Of a DNA stretch of 55,594 bases, positions 44,529 to 53,688 are shown in pieces. The notes under the pieces were generated by a model. The model was not told where the DNA came from. It saw nothing but the letters and a program-made list of their open reading frames with translations, and did not search any database. The stretch comes from Polyangium sp. 15x6. GTDB lineage: Bacteria > Myxococcota_A > Polyangia > Polyangiales > Polyangiaceae. The DNA lies in assembly GCF_029960785.1 (NCBI RefSeq), contig NZ_JASBQE010000079.1:1-55594 (forward strand), in the 5' to 3' direction. Positions within the stretch are counted from its first letter, which is position 1. Each line of letters starts with the position of its first letter. Made by a program: the position numbers and the translations under genes.

Positions 44529-45146
44529 ATGCGACGGACGATGGTTGGCTTCCTGGGGATCGTGGCGCTCGCGTTCGCCGGACTCGGGGCGTGCGGCGGC
44601 AAGGTGGTGATCGACGCCGACGGCAGCGGCGGCGCGGGCAGTAGCAGTACCGGGACGAACACGGGCGGGATGGGGGGCGGTAGCCCGCAGAGCCTTTGCG
44701 AAGCCGCGTGCGCGAAGTTGAGCACGGTCCCGGCGTGCGAGATGCAGGAGGACTGCGTCGAGGATTGCCTCTCGTCGTTCGAGCAAGCCGGCCCCTGCAA
44801 GAAGGAGTTCATCGCCGCGACCGAGTGCATCCTCGAGAACGCGGGTGCCTCCGGCGAGTGCGTCAGCTCGATCTGCGACCCGCTCGTCGGGGCGTTCGAG
44901 ACCTGCCTGAATCCGTTCGGGAGCTGTCAAAGCTCGGTTTGCTCGCAGGGCGAGGACGGGTCGTGCAACTGCGAGGGCACGTGCAACGGCGACGCCGTGG
45001 CCACGGAGTGTTTCCCGCAGCCGGGCACGACGCAGGTCTGCGTTTGCTCCATCGACGGGATTCAGGTCGGCAAGTGCGAGGCCACGCTCGGCACCTTCGC
45101 CTGCGGCGTCACCGAGGGCTGCTGCGCGCAGTTTTTCCTTCAGTAG
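44529..45146 (+). CDS. Cys-rich lipoprotein
   Basis: A 205-residue lipoprotein (ATG at 44529; an ATG three codons earlier is possible). The lipobox is GLGAC. After a Gly/Ser/Thr linker the mature domain holds about 20 Cys in regular pairs (CEAACAKLSTVPACEM, CVEDCLSSF, CNCEGTCNG, EGCCAQFF), clearly disulfide-bonded. No family name recognised; similar proteins are abundant in myxobacteria. The 3' end overlaps the convergent kinase-like gene by 7 bp. Confidence 0.75.
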   Translation: MRRTMVGFLGIVALAFAGLGACGGKVVIDADGSGGAGSSSTGTNTGGMGGGSPQSLCEAACAKLSTVPACEMQEDCVEDCLSSFEQAGPCKKEFIAATECILENAGASGECVSSICDPLVGAFETCLNPFGSCQSSVCSQGEDGSCNCEGTCNGDAVATECFPQPGTTQVCVCSIDGIQVGKCEATLGTFACGVTEGCCAQFFLQ

Positions 45147-46126
45147 TCGAGGCCGTCGATCCCGCTCGGCAGGATCGAGGGGTCGGCGAGCAGATCACGG
45201 CCCATGCGCAGATCGTAGTGGCGCGCGCCGTTCGTGATGCGGGTGAGCAGGGCGAGGTGCTCGGTCTTTCCGGGGACGTCGTCGATCACGAGTCCGCCGC
45301 TCGACGCGATCAGGTTGCCGAGGGCCTCGGCCTTCGCGAGGGGCGCGAGCATGGTCGGTCGATCAGGCTCGATGGACGGGTGAAGCACGAGGGTCGGCGC
45401 GAGGCAGGTGGGTCGGGCTTGGCCTGGGAAGGCGCGCTTCGGGTCGACGTCGCGTTTGTCGCCATGGCTCTTCGTGGGGCCTGCGAAGGGCGCGAGGCGC
45501 GGGAAGGCCGAGAGCGCGGCCGGGCCGACGTGAAAGGGGCGCGGGAAGGCGCAGAGGCGCGGCCGCCCGAGGGGGTCGTCTTCGAGGAGGAGCGCGTCGT
45601 CGCCGAGGAAGTCGTAGCCGGCGGACGCGAGCGTGAGCGTGGTGGTCGTCTTGCCCGCGCCCGCGCCGCCGACGACGAGGACGGCCTCGCCGTGCGCGCG
45701 GTGGACGAGGGCCGCGGCGTGGAGGTGAAAGAGGCCACGCGCGCGGAGGGCGAGCGAGAGCGCGATCTCGAGCGAGCCGCGGGCCGAGCCGGGGACGAGC
45801 TCTTCGTCGGAGAGGAAGGCTTCGATGCGCGAGGCTCCCTCGGGGACGAGGATGCGGCTCTTGCGATCCCAGAGCAGGAAGGCCGGAGGCGCGCCCGCGG
45901 GCTCGCGGTAAGCCTGCACGATGCCGTGGAAAAACGAGGGGCGATATCCCTCGGCGGACGGATCCGCGTCGAGCGAAGCGCCTCCGCGGCGGAGGACGAG
46001 CTCGATGCGGCCGCGGCCGTCCGCCTGGCCGATGCCTTCGTCGAGGCCGAGCTCGCGCACGAGATCGGGCGCGCCGTCCTCGGTGGTCCAGGCGAGCGTC
46101 ACGCCGTGCAGCGCCGCGGATTGCAT
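45140..46126 (-). CDS. HPr kinase-like protein of RiPP cluster
   Basis: A 328-residue P-loop protein with the HPr kinase/phosphorylase C-terminal fold. The Walker A is GGAGAGKT (153-160), preceded by FHLHAAAL as in HprK-like proteins, and followed by GDDALLLED (from 175). The N-terminal 110 residues are not typical HprK. Such kinases in lasso-type clusters (for example in paeninodin) phosphorylate the peptide, and others belong to the uncharacterised HPr-related-PqqD systems. It is the last gene of the cluster, 6 bp after the PqqD gene. It could phosphorylate Thr or Ser of the precursor core. Confidence 0.8.
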   Translation of the reverse strand: MQSAALHGVTLAWTTEDGAPDLVRELGLDEGIGQADGRGRIELVLRRGGASLDADPSAEGYRPSFFHGIVQAYREPAGAPPAFLLWDRKSRILVPEGASRIEAFLSDEELVPGSARGSLEIALSLALRARGLFHLHAAALVHRAHGEAVLVVGGAGAGKTTTTLTLASAGYDFLGDDALLLEDDPLGRPRLCAFPRPFHVGPAALSAFPRLAPFAGPTKSHGDKRDVDPKRAFPGQARPTCLAPTLVLHPSIEPDRPTMLAPLAKAEALGNLIASSGGLVIDDVPGKTEHLALLTRITNGARHYDLRMGRDLLADPSILPSGIDGLDY

Positions 46127-46132
46127 GACGCG

Positions 46133-46411
46133 TCAGGCCGGCAGCACGAGGCCGTCTTCGAGCATCTCGCGCAGCACGCTGTCGACGTCGCGCGCGGCGG
46201 TCTCGCGATCGACGCGGAAGAGCGAGGTGATCCGCTCGGCGATCACGCCCGGATCGGCGATCGATTCGGCGAGGGATTTCCACACGATCACGGCGGCCGC
46301 GTTCAGCGTGAAATAGAACTTCGTGTCGAGGTGGAGCAGGACGCCCGTGCCGTCGTCGAGCTCGGTGAAGAGCACCTGGGGGTTCGGCCTGGGAAGGCGC
46401 GGCTCGGTCAC
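46133..46411 (-). CDS. PqqD family RiPP recognition protein
   Basis: A 92-residue protein with the PqqD winged-helix fold, used as a RiPP recognition element (lasso B1 type). Typical features are FTELDDGTGVLLHLDTKFYFTLNAAAVIVWKSL (cited by its core YFTLNAAAVIVWK) and the C-terminal DVDSVLREMLEDGLV. It should bind the leader of the precursor and bring it to the protease and radical SAM enzyme. The start is a GTG that overlaps the stop of the B2 gene (GTGA). Confidence 0.88.
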   Translation of the reverse strand: MTEPRLPRPNPQVLFTELDDGTGVLLHLDTKFYFTLNAAAVIVWKSLAESIADPGVIAERITSLFRVDRETAARDVDSVLREMLEDGLVLPA

Positions 46412-46926
46412 GCGGCGGGCTCCTTGGGTGGACAGGGGTTCGGGGCGTAGCTCGGCTCGTCCGAGCGCAGCCCCGAGCGTGGACAGGGGTTCGGGGCGTA
46501 GCTCGGCTCGTCCGAGCGCAGCCCCGAGCGTGGACAGGGGTAGGCGTACGTCACGACGAGGTCAGAGGAAAGCTCTTCGCCATACGGCGCGCCGTCGAGC
46601 TCCACCCACGCGTGCCCCTCGATTTCCCCGGGCCGCGAGAGGCCCATGACGAAACGCGCGGCATGTCCGGCGCGGCGGAGCAGCGAGAAGCGCGCGAGCG
46701 AGCGGTAGAAGCAAGTGTCGGGCACGAAGCGCAAGCGATGGGTGATCGCGTCCGCGCGCGCGAGGGCCTCGTCGATGACGTCGAGCGGCGCGGGTTCGAT
46801 CGCGCCCCGCGAGAGCGCGTCGAGCAGCGCGGGCAGGCTCGACTGCGCGACCCGCAAGGGGAGCGACAGGCGCAAGCCGAGCGCGGTCGCGGAGAGGCGG
46901 AGGTGCTGCGGCAACGGCGAAGGCAT
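46408..46926 (-). CDS. lasso-type B2 transglutaminase-like leader peptidase
   Basis: A 172-residue protein with the Transglut_core3 domain of lasso peptide B2 proteases. The catalytic triad is visible as Cys-72 (DTCFYRSLARFSLLRRAG), His-105 (EGHAWVEL) and Asp-111. It should cleave the precursor leader, probably after or near the conserved Thr. GGGGGAG precedes the ATG at 46926. The C-terminus is odd: PCPRSGLRSDEPSYAPN occurs twice in tandem (about residues 130-163), encoded by two 51-bp palindromic units, before the short natural-looking end PCPPKEPAA. Confidence 0.85.
   Translation of the reverse strand: MPSPLPQHLRLSATALGLRLSLPLRVAQSSLPALLDALSRGAIEPAPLDVIDEALARADAITHRLRFVPDTCFYRSLARFSLLRRAGHAARFVMGLSRPGEIEGHAWVELDGAPYGEELSSDLVVTYAYPCPRSGLRSDEPSYAPNPCPRSGLRSDEPSYAPNPCPPKEPAA
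46430..46541 (-). repeat. two tandem palindromic elements inside B2 protease gene
   Basis: Two identical 51-bp units (46430-46480 and 46481-46531) and the first 10 bp of a third. Each carries the inner hairpin GCTCGG...CCGAGC. Each unit adds 17 residues without breaking the frame. The reading phase differs from that used in miaB. Confidence 0.85.
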
Positions 46927-46946
46927 TTCGCGCTCCCCCGAGCCGC

Positions 46947-48002
46947 CTAGCGCACGATGGGCAAGGTGACCTTCTTCGCCCACGCGCCGCGCCATCGCTC
47001 CCGCTGCGCCGGAGGACCGCCCGTGCCCGCGTTCGTCCAGTGGGGTTTGTCGAAGTGCTTCATGCACCAGTTGCAGGGGAAGTGGTCCCACGCGCCGAGC
47101 GAGCCTTCGGCCATGGCGGCGAGCTTCGCGGCCTGGGCCTCGTGGATGATGCCGAGCAGGCGGCCGTGGGCTTCGAGCAGGCTCGTCGTGGCGAGGTCGC
47201 CGGCGACGTCGCGGGGCGGGCCCGCGCTCGGGACGCCGGCGTGCTGGCAGCAGAGGTTGAGCCGGCCCTCGACGTCGACATGGAGGGCCTCGCTTTTCAT
47301 GGCCTCGCAGACGTGGAAGGCCTGCTCGCGGTAGAACCCCTCGGGCATCGTGACGGGCATGGTGAGCGCGGCGGCGAGGCGCTCGATGCGGTGCTGCGCG
47401 TCCTGCCAGGCGCGGGGCGGCAGGTACAGGGCCTCGTCGTGGTGCGTGCCGGTCGCCTGGAGCATGGAGAGCGAGGCGCGCGCCGCGCCGAGCTGCGCGG
47501 CCATGAGGCCAAACGCCTCGATCTGATGCACGTTGCGCGCGTGCAGCACCATCTGGAGCACGAACGGGATGCCGTGCGCGGTGCAGAGGGTGACGGCCTT
47601 CATGACGTCGCGGAAGCTGCCCGCGCCGCGGATCGCGTCGTGCGTCGCCTCGTCGGCGCCGTCGAGGCTGAGGTTCACGGCCGTCAGGCGCTCGCGCCGC
47701 GCAGGATCGTCGCGCACGAGCGAGAGGAGCTGCTCGAAGCGTCGGCCGTTCGTGACGATGTGCCACGTGCAGTCGTGCTCGACGATCGCGTCGAGGACAC
47801 CTTCGAATTCGGGGTGGAGCGTGGGCTCGCCGCCCGTGAGCGCGACCTGGCGCGTGTGGTAGCGCCGCCGGGCCTCGGCGAGGACCTTGCGGATCGTGGC
47901 GAGCGAGAGATCCTTCGGCTTCTGTCCGGGATCACGCAGGCAGTGCTGGCAGTCGAGCTGGCAGCGATCCGTGAGGTGCAGGGCGATCCACGTGACGGCC
48001 AT
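46947..48002 (-). CDS. radical SAM/SPASM-like enzyme of RiPP cluster
   Basis: A 351-residue radical SAM protein. The cluster motif CQLDCQHC gives Cys-14, 18 and 21. TGGEPTLHPEF is the SAM-binding GGE motif. The C-terminal third has extra Cys (FHVCEAM, LNLCCQHAG, PCNWCMKHF) in a SPASM-like pattern for one or two auxiliary clusters. Such enzymes modify peptide side chains or backbone (thioether, C-C, epimer or other). It begins 38 bp after the precursor stop and is followed by the B2 gene after 20 bp, so it is probably the main modifying enzyme. Confidence 0.9.
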   Translation of the reverse strand: MAVTWIALHLTDRCQLDCQHCLRDPGQKPKDLSLATIRKVLAEARRRYHTRQVALTGGEPTLHPEFEGVLDAIVEHDCTWHIVTNGRRFEQLLSLVRDDPARRERLTAVNLSLDGADEATHDAIRGAGSFRDVMKAVTLCTAHGIPFVLQMVLHARNVHQIEAFGLMAAQLGAARASLSMLQATGTHHDEALYLPPRAWQDAQHRIERLAAALTMPVTMPEGFYREQAFHVCEAMKSEALHVDVEGRLNLCCQHAGVPSAGPPRDVAGDLATTSLLEAHGRLLGIIHEAQAAKLAAMAEGSLGAWDHFPCNWCMKHFDKPHWTNAGTGGPPAQRERWRGAWAKKVTLPIVR

Positions 48003-48040
48003 GGCGAATGGGAGCTCCGGGAAGGCGCGCGGCGGGCCGC

Positions 48041-48220
48041 TCAGCCCATGACGACCATGCCCGTGGCCGGGCCCATGGGCGTGAAGAGCGTCGCGCGGGC
48101 CACAGAGCGCTTCTTCGTGAGGCGCGGCGGCTCGTAGGGCTTGCGGGGGTCGTCGGCCTCTTCGCCCTCTGCCTGCGGAGGGGCTTCGAGCTCGGCGCTT
48201 CTGTCTTCGATGTCGGCCAT
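48041..48220 (-). CDS. RiPP precursor peptide
   Basis: A 59-residue peptide starting at ATG 48220, 10 bases after AGAAGGAG. The first 28 residues are acidic (leader). Residues 29-44 carry Tyr-29, Pro-32, Leu-34 and Thr-44, spaced exactly as in the lasso leader motif Y-x2-P-x-L-x3-G-x5-T, with Arg-38 in place of Gly. The likely core is FTPMGPATGMVVMG (46-59) or a little longer. It lacks an acidic residue for lasso closure and Cys for a thioether. It lies directly before the radical SAM gene. No homologue was recognised. Confidence 0.82.
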   Translation of the reverse strand: MADIEDRSAELEAPPQAEGEEADDPRKPYEPPRLTKKRSVARATLFTPMGPATGMVVMG

Positions 48221-48350
48221 GCGCGTCGTTCTCCTTCTACCGCCGCCGCAGAGGCGCGCGCCTCAGATGACGCTTCGGCCAGCGTACCACCCGGGTGCGG
48301 AGGCCACAACGACGGCCACCGGACTTCGTTGCGCGCGCGCAGCGGCGCAT

Positions 48351-49214
48351 TCAGGCCACGCCCGTGAGCGGGGCGAGCAGCGCGTGCGGGTAGGGGCCTT
48401 CCTCGAAGAGGACGACCTCGTAGCCGGCTTCGAAGGCTGCGCGTGGGATCTCGTCGGGCGAGAGGTACGAGAAGAAACCGCCATCCGGGTAGAACTGATC
48501 GCCAGGCTCGCTGCGGCCGGGAGCGCCCATGGTGGTGAAGGCGCGGCGGAGCGCGTCGCGCAGGCGACCCTTGGTCTCGGTCTTTGCCTCGCTGTCGTGG
48601 CGGAGCTGGAAGCTCGTGAGCACGACGGCGCGTGGCGCGAGCGCGCGGACGGCGCGAAGGAGGCCGAGCCGCGCCGAGGCGGGCAGGACGTGCGAGAGGC
48701 TGCCCCAGCCGAGGATCACGGCGTCGAAGGAGAGCGGATCGCCGAGCGAGGCGAGCGGGCCGCCGCGGCCCTCGGAGGCGGCGACGAGGTCGTCGTAGGA
48801 GCCGAGGAGGATCTCGGCGGAGCGGCCCCGGACGAGCGCGCGGGCGCCCTCGACGAAGTCCTCGCAGGGGTCGAAGGCCATCACTTCGTAGCCGCGATCG
48901 AGCAGCGCGACGACCTCGCGCCCGGCGCCGGCCGCGCCGACGAGCACGCGGCCGCGGCGGGGGAAGCTCGGCGCGTCGAGGACACGTTTTTCCCAGGTGA
49001 AGAGGCCGCTCTCGAAGCGATGGCCGCCGGGGAGGTAGGTCTTCTGGCGCGCGTAGAGCGCGGCGGTGAGGGCGGCGCGATCGGCCTCGGGGATCCAGGC
49101 GAGGAGCAGCTCGTCGCGCAGGCCTTCGCGCGCGGTGGCGATGCGAGTCGCGAGCCTGTCCGCCGCGAGCAGGGCACGAATCCAGGGAGGGATCCTGTAC
49201 GTCACGGCGCGCAT
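48351..49214 (-). CDS. SAM-dependent methyltransferase near RiPP cluster
   Basis: A 287-residue class I methyltransferase-like protein. The ATG at 49214 begins MRAVTYRIPPWIR. Motif I is RVLVGAAGAGREVVALLDRG with the following acidic VMAFDP, and FDAVILGWGSLSHVL is motif IV. The N-terminal 85 residues are helical and may recognise substrate. It is the first gene of the same-strand run, 130 bp upstream of the precursor, and could methylate the peptide or a small molecule. Membership of the cluster is inferred. Confidence 0.75.
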   Translation of the reverse strand: MRAVTYRIPPWIRALLAADRLATRIATAREGLRDELLLAWIPEADRAALTAALYARQKTYLPGGHRFESGLFTWEKRVLDAPSFPRRGRVLVGAAGAGREVVALLDRGYEVMAFDPCEDFVEGARALVRGRSAEILLGSYDDLVAASEGRGGPLASLGDPLSFDAVILGWGSLSHVLPASARLGLLRAVRALAPRAVVLTSFQLRHDSEAKTETKGRLRDALRRAFTTMGAPGRSEPGDQFYPDGGFFSYLSPDEIPRAAFEAGYEVVLFEEGPYPHALLAPLTGVA

Positions 49215-49712
49215 CCTAGCTGGTGGATGCGGCAGCGGAAGCGGAGGCGGAAGCGGAAGCGGCAGCGGCAGCGGAAGCGGCAGCGGCAGCGGAAGCGGAA
49301 GCGGAGGCGGGGACGGGGACGTTATGCTCGACACGACGAAGCATCGGCAGCCCCCTGGGTGAGCACGCGCCCTGAGAAGAGCGCGCCAGTCGCAATCCCG
49401 GTCGCGAGCGCGAAAAGCCTGATCCGCCACCGGACCCCTACACGGCGACGCCCGATATCCCCGCCCTCGCGAAGCGCCCCGGGCCCGCCGCGACGCATGC
49501 CGCCTCCCGATCGCGAGCCCCCCGCGCTCCTCGGCCAGCGGCGCGCCTCCCCCTCGAACCGCCCCCGCCGACCTTCCTCCGCCAAGGCCGCCCCGCCGCA
49601 AGGGCCCCGCCCCCCGAGCAAAGGAGCCCGCCGACCGACCCAAGGACCCCGCGCACCGGTTTCCGGACCCCGCGCACCGGTTTCCGGAGGGCCCCCCCGA
49701 TCGCCCGGCAGC
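49215..49712. other. intergenic region with low-complexity DNA
   Basis: A 498-bp gap. It contains the hexanucleotide repeat (49229-49313), a 21-bp direct repeat in two copies near 49645-49686, and a weak 58-codon minus-strand frame (49322-49498) with one possible membrane helix (RLFALATGIATGALF). No gene I can confidently support. Confidence 0.35.
49229..49313 (+). repeat. AGCGGM hexanucleotide repeat, left copy
   Basis: About 14 units of AGCGGA or AGCGGC (with a few AGGCGG) in tandem on the plus strand. The complementary repeat lies at 53357-53487, so the two form a long inverted pair around three genes. Confidence 0.85.
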
Positions 49713-50606: not shown

Positions 50607-52193
50607 CTAATCGGGGATCTCGGGCGAGCCGGGCCAGGTGATGCCCACCTTCTGAAGCATGCGCTGAGCGGCGAGCAGGAGCGAAGGGTCGGGCGGGGTG
50701 GGAAGGAGCATCTCGAGCTCGTCCGGTGTCAGCTCGGTGGGGCCAGCGAGGGCGCGGGTGGTCACCGCATCCACGAGCGCCTGGATGGGTGCGGCTTTCG
50801 TGAGGCCGAGGTCCGCCACGTACCCACCTTGAAACCACCGCCGAAGCCGCCCCCCTTTGAGGGAGTGCCACGCGCGCAGCCGGCCCGCGCCCTTCATGAT
50901 GTAGGAGTCATAGAACGAGCCGCCGACCTGCTCACCGTGGAGCCAGAAGCCGACGCTCGCCAGCTTCTCTCCATGCGCTCCTACCTCGAGCAGGCCGACG
51001 GCCAGCTCGAGCGTGGGCAAAAGCTCGGCGGGGAGCTCCGCCACAGCCACGCGCACGTCGTCCGGGCCGCCCTTCACCGCGTCGATCGGGAGCTCGATGT
51101 GCTCGATCGGACCATACCCGAGCTCGTACGCGAGGCCGACGACGCCCGCCTCGCTCCATGCCATGACCTCGTAGCTCCCGCCTCCGTCGCCATTACGGAA
51201 GGCGCCCCGCCTGAGGTCGCCCGTCCAATGCGGGACGAAGGAGGCCGCGAAGGGGTGGCGATCGAGCGGGTCGAGCCGAGCGAGGATGTTTTCGACGTAG
51301 GCGCGCAGCGCGGCGCGCACGATGGTGTCTTGGTCGGCGCCGCGACGGGGGCGCACCGTCGTCGTCAAGGGCTCGGGCAAAAAGGGGTTGCGACGTCTTT
51401 GCCGCGGCAGCTCGGGGATCTCGGGCGAACCGGGCCAGGTGATGCCGACCTGCTGAAGCATGCGCTGGGCACCAACGAATTGTTTCGGGTCAGGTGGGGA
51501 GTGAAAGAGCATCTCGAACTCCTCGGCCGTGAACTCCGTGGGGCCTTTCAGCCTCCGATCGACCACCGCGTCGATGAGCGCGTGGATGGGGGCATCTTTG
51601 CGGTCGCACTCCGCCACGGCCGCCCTGGTGCTTGGATCACGAAGAAAAGAAGATGACGACCGGAGCCGACCGCCTTGGAGCAAGCCCCACCTGGCCAGCC
51701 CGCGGGCGCCCGGCGATGTCGGGTCACTGAACAGCGTGCCGCCGACGCGAGCACCGTACAGCCAGAAGCCCACGCCCGCATCCCTCTGCCCATGCTCGGG
51801 TCCCACTCCGAGCATGCCGGTGGCCATCACGAGCGCGGGCTCCAGCTCCTCAGGAAGGTCCGGCAACGCCCCGCGCACGTCGTCCGGGCCACCGGTCACC
51901 GCAGAGGCCGAAAGGCCGAGCTGCTCGATCGGACCCCACCCGAGTTCGTACGCGAGAGCGACGACGCTCGCCTCGGTCCACGCCACAACTTCGTAGTTTC
52001 CGCATCCGTCGCCGTTGTAGAAGGCGCCCCGCTCGAGGTCGCCCGTCCAACGCGGATCGGCGCAGGCCGGGAACGAAAGGCGTTTGAGCGCGCCGCTCCC
52101 GAAGATCGCCTCGAAGTAGGCGCGCAACGCGGCGCGCACGATGGCGTTTCGGTCGAAGACGAGGTTTCCGTACCGATGCTTCCGCTCGATCAT
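50607..52193 (-). CDS. protein of two fused domain copies, putative immunity protein
   Basis: A 528-residue cytoplasmic protein made of two copies of one domain of about 240 residues. Both copies include IVRAALRAY, HWTGDL/RWTGDL, FYNGDGCGNYEV/FRNGDGGGSYEV, GGPDDVR and GVGFWL/SVGFWL. They end with MLQQVGITWPGSPEIPE and MLQKVGITWPGSPEIPD. A linker (about residues 262-285) with RQRRRNPF separates them. I recognise no known domain. It lies 62 bp downstream of a lipoprotein with a nuclease-like tail, so an immunity protein with duplicated specificity is inferred. Confidence 0.6.
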   Translation of the reverse strand: MIERKHRYGNLVFDRNAIVRAALRAYFEAIFGSGALKRLSFPACADPRWTGDLERGAFYNGDGCGNYEVVAWTEASVVALAYELGWGPIEQLGLSASAVTGGPDDVRGALPDLPEELEPALVMATGMLGVGPEHGQRDAGVGFWLYGARVGGTLFSDPTSPGARGLARWGLLQGGRLRSSSSFLRDPSTRAAVAECDRKDAPIHALIDAVVDRRLKGPTEFTAEEFEMLFHSPPDPKQFVGAQRMLQQVGITWPGSPEIPELPRQRRRNPFLPEPLTTTVRPRRGADQDTIVRAALRAYVENILARLDPLDRHPFAASFVPHWTGDLRRGAFRNGDGGGSYEVMAWSEAGVVGLAYELGYGPIEHIELPIDAVKGGPDDVRVAVAELPAELLPTLELAVGLLEVGAHGEKLASVGFWLHGEQVGGSFYDSYIMKGAGRLRAWHSLKGGRLRRWFQGGYVADLGLTKAAPIQALVDAVTTRALAGPTELTPDELEMLLPTPPDPSLLLAAQRMLQKVGITWPGSPEIPD

Positions 52194-53236: not shown

Positions 53237-53688
53237 GGAGTATCGAATCGCACATTGATCGGCCGAGCAACAAGGGAAAACGAGGCAGGGAGCTCACGCT
53301 GCGCCCCGGAACCGAGCGTCCCATCACGGTGACCGGCGCGGCGGGATCCGGCGGGAGCCGCTGCCGCTTCCGCTGCCGCTGCCGCTGCCGCTTCCGCTGC
53401 TGCTGCCGCTGCTGCTGCCGCTGCCGCTGCCGCTTCCGCTGCCGCTGCCGCTTCCGCTTCCGCTTCCGCTGCCGCTGCCGCTTCCGGGGCGCGCATTCAA
53501 GGGCGCTCTCGTCCGGGGTCGGCCAGCATGCCCGCGGGCTCGGGTGGCGCAAGGCCAAGCCGTGCTCGCCGTACTCGCGCTTCGCGCTCCGTGCGGCTGC
53601 GCGCGGTGCGAGGCTTCGCCTCGCAGCCTTGCACCACCCTCCGCGCGCGGGCCCGGGGAATGGGCCCCGGTCGGGGCAGGAGGAAGCA
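53237..53688. other. intergenic region with low-complexity DNA
   Basis: A 452-bp gap dominated by the CCGCTK hexanucleotide repeat at 53357-53487. The remainder upstream of the four-helix-bundle gene has no recognisable gene. Its end holds AGGAGGA at 53678-53684, the ribosome site of that gene. Confidence 0.4.
53357..53487 (-). repeat. CCGCTK hexanucleotide repeat, right copy
   Basis: About 21 units of CCGCTG or CCGCTT, interrupted by CTG triplets, on the plus strand. It is the complement of the repeat at 49229-49313 and thus in inverted orientation to it. Confidence 0.85.

Follow-up and report, generated by a model that had tools for sequence, protein, structure and literature searches.

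A lasso-related peptide gene cluster with a radical SAM enzyme and no AsnB-type cyclase nearby in Polyangium and other Myxococcota

Our analysis of a contig of the myxobacterium Polyangium sp. 15x6 (NZ_JASBQE010000079.1, 55,594 nucleotides; this whole stretch, the entire contig C252 of a 13.4 Mb genome in 275 contigs, is called the window below) points to a pathway for a ribosomally synthesized and post-translationally modified peptide (RiPP) that is related to those of lasso peptides and works without an asparagine synthetase (AsnB)-like cyclase, the main modification being supplied by a SPASM/twitch-type radical S-adenosylmethionine (SAM) enzyme. We assign this reading a probability of about 0.7. 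Comparison of sequences establishes the gene set, its conservation, the layout of the precursor leader, the missing cyclase and the differences between the cores of the two kinds of cluster.

Gene set and conservation of the cluster

Read in the direction of transcription, six minus-strand open reading frames (ORFs) at positions 45140-49214 encode an accessory SAM-dependent methyltransferase-like protein of 287 amino acids (48351-49214), a precursor peptide of 59 (48041-48220), a radical SAM enzyme of 351 (46947-48002), a B2 leader peptidase of the Transglut_core3 type of 172, with Cys72/His105 (46408-46926), a stand-alone, PqqD-like RiPP recognition element (RRE) of the B1 type of 92 (46133-46411), and an HprK-like kinase of 328, with H136/K159/D176/D177 (45140-46126). 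The coordinates and translations bear out the order given in a preliminary description of this DNA, together with its statement that two of the junctions overlap or lie within 6 bp: the PqqD and B2 frames overlap by 4 bp and 6 bp separate HprK from PqqD, the other gaps being 20 bp (B2/radical SAM), 38 bp (radical SAM/precursor) and 130 bp (precursor/methyltransferase). Judged by Pfam and NCBIfam, the identities of three products are clear: the radical SAM enzyme (PF04055, 85.3 bits, with a cysteine pattern and a structure model), B2 (PF13471, 56.7 bits; lasso_biosyn_B2, 48.9 bits against a cut-off of 33) and the PqqD-like protein (PF05402, 49.7 bits). The best NCBIfam model for the last, lasso_PqqD_Strm, is matched at 50.7 bits, under its cut-off of 70, and its best matches among solved chains in the PDB are the lasso B1 proteins TbiB1 and TfuB1. 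The B1/B2 pair is present, with its B1 model below cut-off, and the window B2 is the only PF13471 match in its genome. Identification of the kinase and the methyltransferase is weak, the former depending on a motif and an HprK_rel_A match of 30.5 bits (cut-off 200) and the latter on family matches that are all under cut-off.

The preliminary description proposed a search for the same gene order in other myxobacteria, and a conserved set was found. This radical SAM enzyme is encoded in 18 of 377 Myxococcota genomes, from 10 genera (E ≤ 1e-30), and a scan of genome contigs by exact peptide words gave 16 named loci, in Polyangium, Byssovorax, Minicystis and metagenome bins labelled Polyangiaceae, Myxococcales, Myxococcota, Deltaproteobacteria or Proteobacteria; the two sets overlap (loci L022 and L004, for example). 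The Myxococcota counts are lower bounds from one phylum, with a limited number of candidates scored per genome. Polyangium fumosum is the nearest named relative (91% identity in the radical SAM enzyme). When the window and 22 loci, all chosen by their radical SAM gene, were sorted into 13 groups, relatives of PqqD and HprK appeared in all 13, while BLAST clusters gave B2 in 11, or 12 with a phmmer match at L032. PF13471 lies within 5 kb of the radical SAM gene in 17 of the 18 genomes and occurs anywhere in at least 69 of the 377 (E ≤ 1e-6); on these counts the association of B2 with the radical SAM enzyme is specific.

The precursor peptide

The window precursor, preceded 10 bases 5' of its ATG by the purine-rich, ribosome-site-like stretch AGAAGGAG, carries a Y-x-x-P motif in its leader and a Thr 15 residues past the Tyr, and its predicted core, FTPMGPATGMVVMG, follows ...RAT-L. 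The YxxP motif of lasso precursors (accessible text of PMC12710340) and the Thr(-2) rule for lasso leaders, from which the cleavage site was predicted (accessible text of PMC10885120 and PMC10368454), are thus both found in it, but not an Asp or Glu at core positions 7-9. The core has about 14 residues, begins Phe-Thr, contains no Asp, Glu or Cys, has Phe-1 as its sole aromatic residue and ends in Met-Gly, not Ser. In 27 codons spanning leader and core start, pairs of four Polyangium species differ by one to four synonymous changes and by none that alters an amino acid, so the precursor ORF is more than a chance frame, as judged by this substitution pattern.

Conservation of the enzymes without the precursor would have spoken against the cluster as preliminarily described; the precursor was found at all 16 named loci and in 15 of the 18 genomes (overlapping sets), the search in the other three (G222, G273 and G277) reaching only 1.5 kb from the radical SAM gene. 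A precursor profile also recovered two peptides outside its seed set, L016/L032 and L036, the latter 1.9 kb from the radical SAM gene. It is very unlikely that the small ORF or its leader-core junction has been mis-assigned and that the true substrate of the enzymes is a different peptide or protein: six loci do encode a larger protein immediately ahead of the precursor, and no family model matches the precursor, but its retention at all 16 loci, the purely synonymous differences in the Polyangium block tested and the lasso spacing of the leader argue otherwise. Searches with the window precursor gave no match in Pfam or NCBIfam, none in the PDB at E up to 10 and no second copy in its genome at E ≤ 0.1. 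NF033521 (lasso_leader_L3), a model passed by two of four lasso control precursors, was matched below its cut-off by only two more of the precursors scanned, the distant L029 and L019; a Pfam scan gave just two matches, both under cut-off and from one lasso control.

Twenty-two precursors from radical SAM loci were compared, a set without same-locus repeats and without some near-copies (L039 and L021, for example) in which others, such as L026 and L027, were kept. Thr stands at +15 from Tyr in 20 of them, with L040 placed in the fitting register of its second motif. The cores, which vary in length, share no Tyr or Glu and are rich in Gly, Ala, Val, Thr and Met, have Ser or Thr at position 2 in 20/22 and start with Phe, Leu, Val or Ile in 20/22. 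Charged residues are rare: Asp or Glu occurs at positions 7-9 in two cores and anywhere in three, and Lys or Arg in none. Twenty have no Cys, and nine have no Phe, Trp, Tyr or His (13/22 with any).

Absence of a cyclase and comparison with lasso loci

The preliminary description reported that no lasso cyclase lay in the window and held that one close by would refute it; what the genome holds is a fragment on another contig. The sole PF00733 (AsnB-family) match in the 13.4 Mb (contig C227:64224-64397, locus L001) scores 27.2 bits over 56 profile positions, in a degenerate frame in which no SGGxDS-like loop, which we take to be an AsnB motif, could be seen by eye. In 16 of the 18 radical SAM genomes (G273 and G277 were left out), no PF00733 match was found within 10 kb of the radical SAM gene at E ≤ 1e-3, as far as the contigs extend. 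Among other genomes with B2, PF00733 lies within 5 kb of B2 in 21/52 (E ≤ 1e-10, coordinates read), a stricter threshold than that applied to the radical SAM genomes. A cyclase beside B2 in 21/52, against 0/15 radical SAM genomes with B2, gives a Fisher p of 0.003, for genomes that share ancestry.

Ten of these 21 AsnB-linked loci (L046-L055) served as lasso controls. Each of them has a short ORF in which Y/F/W-x-x-P-x-[LIVM]-x9-T-x precedes a C-terminal core; the pattern, which matches 0.34 times per shuffled locus, demanded the Thr, and therefore only unselected features count in comparing leaders. Twelve matches were obtained, and one (L047, 5063-5203), which overlaps the PqqD and B2 frames, was dropped as chance, leaving 11. 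HprK-family and B2-family matches are present at 10/10 loci and the radical SAM profile at 0/10. Gly occupies position +9 in 11/11 lasso leaders versus 4/22 radical SAM leaders. The 11 lasso cores, whose rows are not independent, have Asp or Glu at positions 7-9 in 11/11, a Gly or Ala start in 10/11 and Ser or Thr at position 2 in 0/11. By sequence, then, the front end is common to the two kinds of cluster, the divergence lies in the part on which the central enzyme works, and the differences between the cores are as expected if no lasso ring were formed.

A cyclase encoded elsewhere could in principle act in trans on a true lasso peptide that the radical SAM enzyme merely tailors, a view that we consider highly improbable. 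B1, B2, the kinase and the leader layout are all lasso-like, and full-length AsnB proteins are encoded elsewhere in most of the 16 genomes, the nearest, in genome G159, 11 kb from the radical SAM gene. This last protein looks ordinary because its 250 bits exceed the 50-150 bits of all 21 B2-linked matches. The window genome, at 27 bits, and that of a genus mate, G339 (39 and 30 bits; two contigs, 97% complete), have only weak partial matches to PF00733, which makes a trans-acting cyclase hard to hold for the window genome unless it lies within the missing ~2%. Furthermore, since the window core has no Asp or Glu and starts with Phe, it offers no macrolactam acceptor.

The radical SAM enzyme

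In an alignment of 21 sequences, without Minicystis, the cysteines C14, C18 and C21 of a CX3CX2C motif and C232, C251, C252, C310 and C313 are invariant, and C140 is nearly so; a separate 25-row comparison included Minicystis as two pieces and the near-copies L010, L012 and L013. These cysteines probably hold the radical SAM cluster and provide ligands for one auxiliary cluster. An AlphaFold2 model of the enzyme (pLDDT 89.9) aligns best to SuiB (Z 26.1 over 292 residues, 3.2 Å), followed by SkfB (24.3), anSME (23.4), 5why, presumably CteB (22.6), ChlB (22.4) and PqqE (22.2), with EpeE lower at 19.0, and the non-peptide enzymes BlsE and viperin fall within the same Z range as the peptide maturases. 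The modelled fold fits a peptide-acting radical SAM maturase and singles out no chemistry. Elsewhere, six plasmid records match the enzyme at 28-36% identity across 54-73% of the protein; no B2, PqqD or HprK gene is listed in three plasmid neighbourhoods (H1, H2 and H5), from an incomplete gene table. The gene is frameshifted in the Minicystis rosea record (L028:8001-9064), by sequencing error or loss of function.

The predicted sequence of the window core, devoid of Cys, excludes thioether formation on it, and a sactipeptide or ranthipeptide was rejected on the same ground, Cys being present in only 2/22 family cores. Aromatic cross-links are unlikely as the chemistry of the family, since nine of the 22 cores have no Phe, Trp, Tyr or His; an aromatic cyclophane of the ChlB/triceptide type was likewise rejected, there being no conserved core aromatic (ChlB is a multiple cyclophane synthase according to a title cited in the accessible text of PMC12636437).

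With these chemistries set aside for many members, peptide epimerization of the EpeE/PoyD type, which would convert several core residues to D-amino acids, becomes the strongest competitor, if still a doubtful one. The cores, without Lys or Arg and rich in Gly, Ala, Val, Thr and Met, would suit it, as would the alignment to EpeE, and the conserved extra cysteines C140 and C252 could be hydrogen donors, a role that Cys plays in radical SAM epimerases. However, SuiB, SkfB, anSME, CteB, ChlB and PqqE all rank above EpeE, though a shared fold shows no function, and a single conserved Ser or Thr at core position 2 would be unexpected for a broad epimerase. Still less probable, and indeed improbable, is conversion of the peptide to a small redox cofactor, as in the clusters for PQQ (pyrroloquinoline quinone) and mycofactocin. 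The best NCBIfam match of the enzyme is mycofactocin MftC (89.9 bits), with PqqE fourth (73 bits), and PqqE is its best match in a PDB sequence search, but both scores are far under the cut-offs (265 and 381) and both matches leave out the C-terminal part of the enzyme. Precursors of such cofactors keep an invariant pair of modified residues, and the cores here have neither a Tyr nor a Glu in common and are of different lengths. Modification of the lasso-type precursor at or next to Ser/Thr-2 remains the preferred reading, and the radical SAM enzyme is a better candidate than the kinase for acting there, because the conserved Ser/Thr-2 occurs only in radical SAM clusters and the kinase in both kinds.

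Kinase, methyltransferase and transporter

The preliminary description had allowed that lasso clusters sometimes have the kinase; the sharing holds, and it is nothing special to radical SAM clusters, given HprK-family matches at all ten lasso loci examined. Each of the residues H136, K159, D176 and D177 occurs in 20 of 21 kinase rows, the odd one (L034, 88 amino acids) being a truncated gene call. The His-Lys-Asp-Asp set is reported to be needed in lasso kinases, and those described act on a C-terminal Ser (accessible text of PMC9266682), a residue that the window precursor does not have. In a tree of 32 kinases, the 23 from radical SAM loci and nine from lasso loci (that of L054 was too short and was dropped) fall on two sides of one branch with support 87/83, a split that fits one stable lineage. 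As a separate observation, only 4/11 lasso precursors end in Ser by reading, yet HprK-family matches occur at all ten loci, so the kinase target in these myxobacterial lassos is probably not always a C-terminal Ser.

The methyltransferase, which the preliminary description counted in the set, is present in the window and is not part of the core, being found in only four of the 13 locus groups. At the Byssovorax and Minicystis loci, longer proteins resemble it in their C-terminal part; the one from Minicystis has 593 amino acids and carries an NTP_transf_5 domain at its N-terminus, ahead of the methyltransferase-like region. A relative is also encoded in the AsnB-linked lasso locus L053 (2397-3431, E 4e-49), and the methyltransferase is therefore likewise common to both kinds of cluster. 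Assignment as a daptide methyltransferase was rejected (NF041820, 34.6 bits against a cut-off of 175), and methyltransferase matches of 17-28 bits in L036-L041 were judged to be shadows of other frames. An ATP-binding cassette (ABC)-transporter-like gene cluster lies near the loci of nine groups, and Pfam confirmed it in the four tested (L023, L025, L028 and L032).

Proposed pathway and relation to known systems

We infer every catalytic step and the cleavage site in what follows. The PqqD-like protein would bind the YxxP leader of the 59-residue precursor. The core, short and uncharged, would be modified by the radical SAM enzyme, with Ser/Thr-2 or a residue adjoining it as the likeliest site, by cross-linking or by functionalization of an alpha-carbon. 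B2 would then cut after Thr-Leu, releasing the core of about 14 residues, and the HprK-like kinase and the methyltransferase could phosphorylate and methylate the peptide; relatives would add an ABC exporter and, in Minicystis, also a nucleotidyltransferase domain. The product is probably a small modified peptide unlike those described so far. Where the preliminary description had a radical SAM enzyme in the place of the cyclase beside lasso-type B1 and B2, the latter pair, the enzyme and the lack of a cyclase all stand, and we infer the replacement itself from exclusion and the shared leader layout rather than from chemistry.

Several observations weigh against this pathway. No ABC transporter lies beside the window cluster; no B2 was found at L040 (genome G005), where the radical SAM gene is only 1.5 kb from the contig end; PqqD-family matches occur at only 7/10 lasso loci; and the kinase and methyltransferase score far below curated cut-offs. 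The 22 precursor rows still include near-copies, so that they are not independent, and there are distant cores with Asp or Glu at positions 7-9 (L032 and L038) or with Cys (L032 and L033). Conservation of Ser/Thr-2 could instead reflect a need of B2 after the cut, and no described radical SAM chemistry is singled out, since SuiB, SkfB, anSME, CteB, ChlB, PqqE and EpeE all align at Z 19-26. Finally, in the kinase tree the split carries no star and no root is placed, so that the tree gives no direction of change from lasso to radical SAM.

The closest known systems are lasso clusters with split B1/B2 and a kinase, of the paeninodin and pseudomycoidin type, which have the same PqqD-like B1, Transglut_core3 B2, HprK-like kinase with His-Lys-Asp-Asp, YxxP leader with Thr at -2 and, as in some relatives of the window, an ABC transporter and NTP_transf_5; the cluster described here differs in having a radical SAM enzyme and no AsnB-type cyclase, and its core has no Asp or Glu and starts Phe-Thr. 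As in radical SAM-modified RiPPs, genes for a conserved precursor and an RRE accompany that of a CX3CX2C enzyme. The enzyme resembles the SPASM/twitch maturases SuiB, SkfB, CteB and PqqE in its CX3CX2C motif and, with Z 22-26 over 270-292 residues, in its predicted fold, but is only 14-20% identical to them in the aligned parts and is accompanied by a stand-alone lasso-type RRE and a B2 peptidase. The substrates of those maturases carry Cys or Lys/Trp, residues absent from the window core. SynChlorMet cassettes also bring together HprK-like, PqqD-like and radical SAM proteins, by their family names (ScmC, which we take to be akin to HprK, ScmD, ScmE and ScmF), but their models are matched at only 12.7, 18.7, 74 and 78 bits against cut-offs of 125, 100, 400 and 400. 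We know of no B2 peptidase in these cassettes, and a literature search for SynChlorMet gave no publication.

The combination of genes was not first noticed here, because RRE-Finder, in the accessible text of PMC7470986, obtained almost 8,000 matches with its model for discrete lasso RREs; about 4,000 of these had a peptidase and a cyclase and about 300 a radical SAM protein. These 300 resemble the window in having a discrete lasso-type RRE next to a radical SAM gene; they were treated there as false positives of the lasso model, and that text describes no precursor, peptidase or class for them. Nor did our literature search, which covered few subscription papers, find a described class built on precursor, radical SAM enzyme, B1, B2 and kinase. 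The preliminary description suggested that this may be a new class. We describe the cluster as a radical SAM RiPP with a lasso front end and keep "new class" as a bold reading until the product is known. That bolder reading, which seems to us evenly balanced, is of a class arisen by enzyme replacement: a lasso pathway of Myxococcota would have exchanged its ATP-dependent cyclase for a radical SAM enzyme, keeping leader, RRE, leader peptidase, kinase and exporter, its core would have changed from G/A...D/E to a mostly uncharged F/L/V/I-S/T, and its product would be modified by the radical SAM enzyme at Ser/Thr-2, possibly in a new type of modification, and phosphorylated.

Our results suggest that leader, B1, B2 and kinase, the front end of lasso pathways, form a portable module able to serve another central enzyme, and provide a matched comparison, within one phylum, of the same leader with a different enzyme and a different core. 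They also raise two testable questions: what a radical SAM enzyme does to a peptide nearly devoid of reactive side chains, and whether B1 and B2 are able to pass a substrate to enzymes besides the cyclase. The rules for leader and core could be used in mining for additional members that are overlooked or thrown out by lasso models.

Other features of the window and related loci

Directly upstream of the precursor, six loci encode members of a protein family of 360-460 amino acids (L024:6452-7804, L025:6668-7750, L026:6454-7725, L027:3618-4802, L028:6388-7758 and L035:1571-2953), with 21-29% identity to the L028 member. The gene ends 2 bp before the precursor in L024 and L035, and some of the N-termini are signal-peptide-like by eye; no Pfam match was found in three members tested, and the structure model was poor (pLDDT 37).

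A repeat search found a 51-bp unit at 46428-46541 (2.2 exact copies, no strand assigned), in frame within the 3' end of the B2 gene, where it lengthens the C-terminus with a repeated CPRSGLRSDEPSYAPNP tail. The search listed 44 matching places in the genome of the window, the B2 copy included, and the B2 tail differs among Polyangium species; from its sequence distribution, the element seems to be a dispersed repeat that has extended into the end of a coding sequence. Two hexanucleotide arrays are also present in the window, one of 14 GGAAGC units directly upstream of the cluster (49225-49310) and one of 22 GCCGCT units at 53357-53486. Between them, an ORF of 528 amino acids (50607-52193) seems to consist of two similar halves of ~240 amino acids each, an apparent internal duplication by eye.

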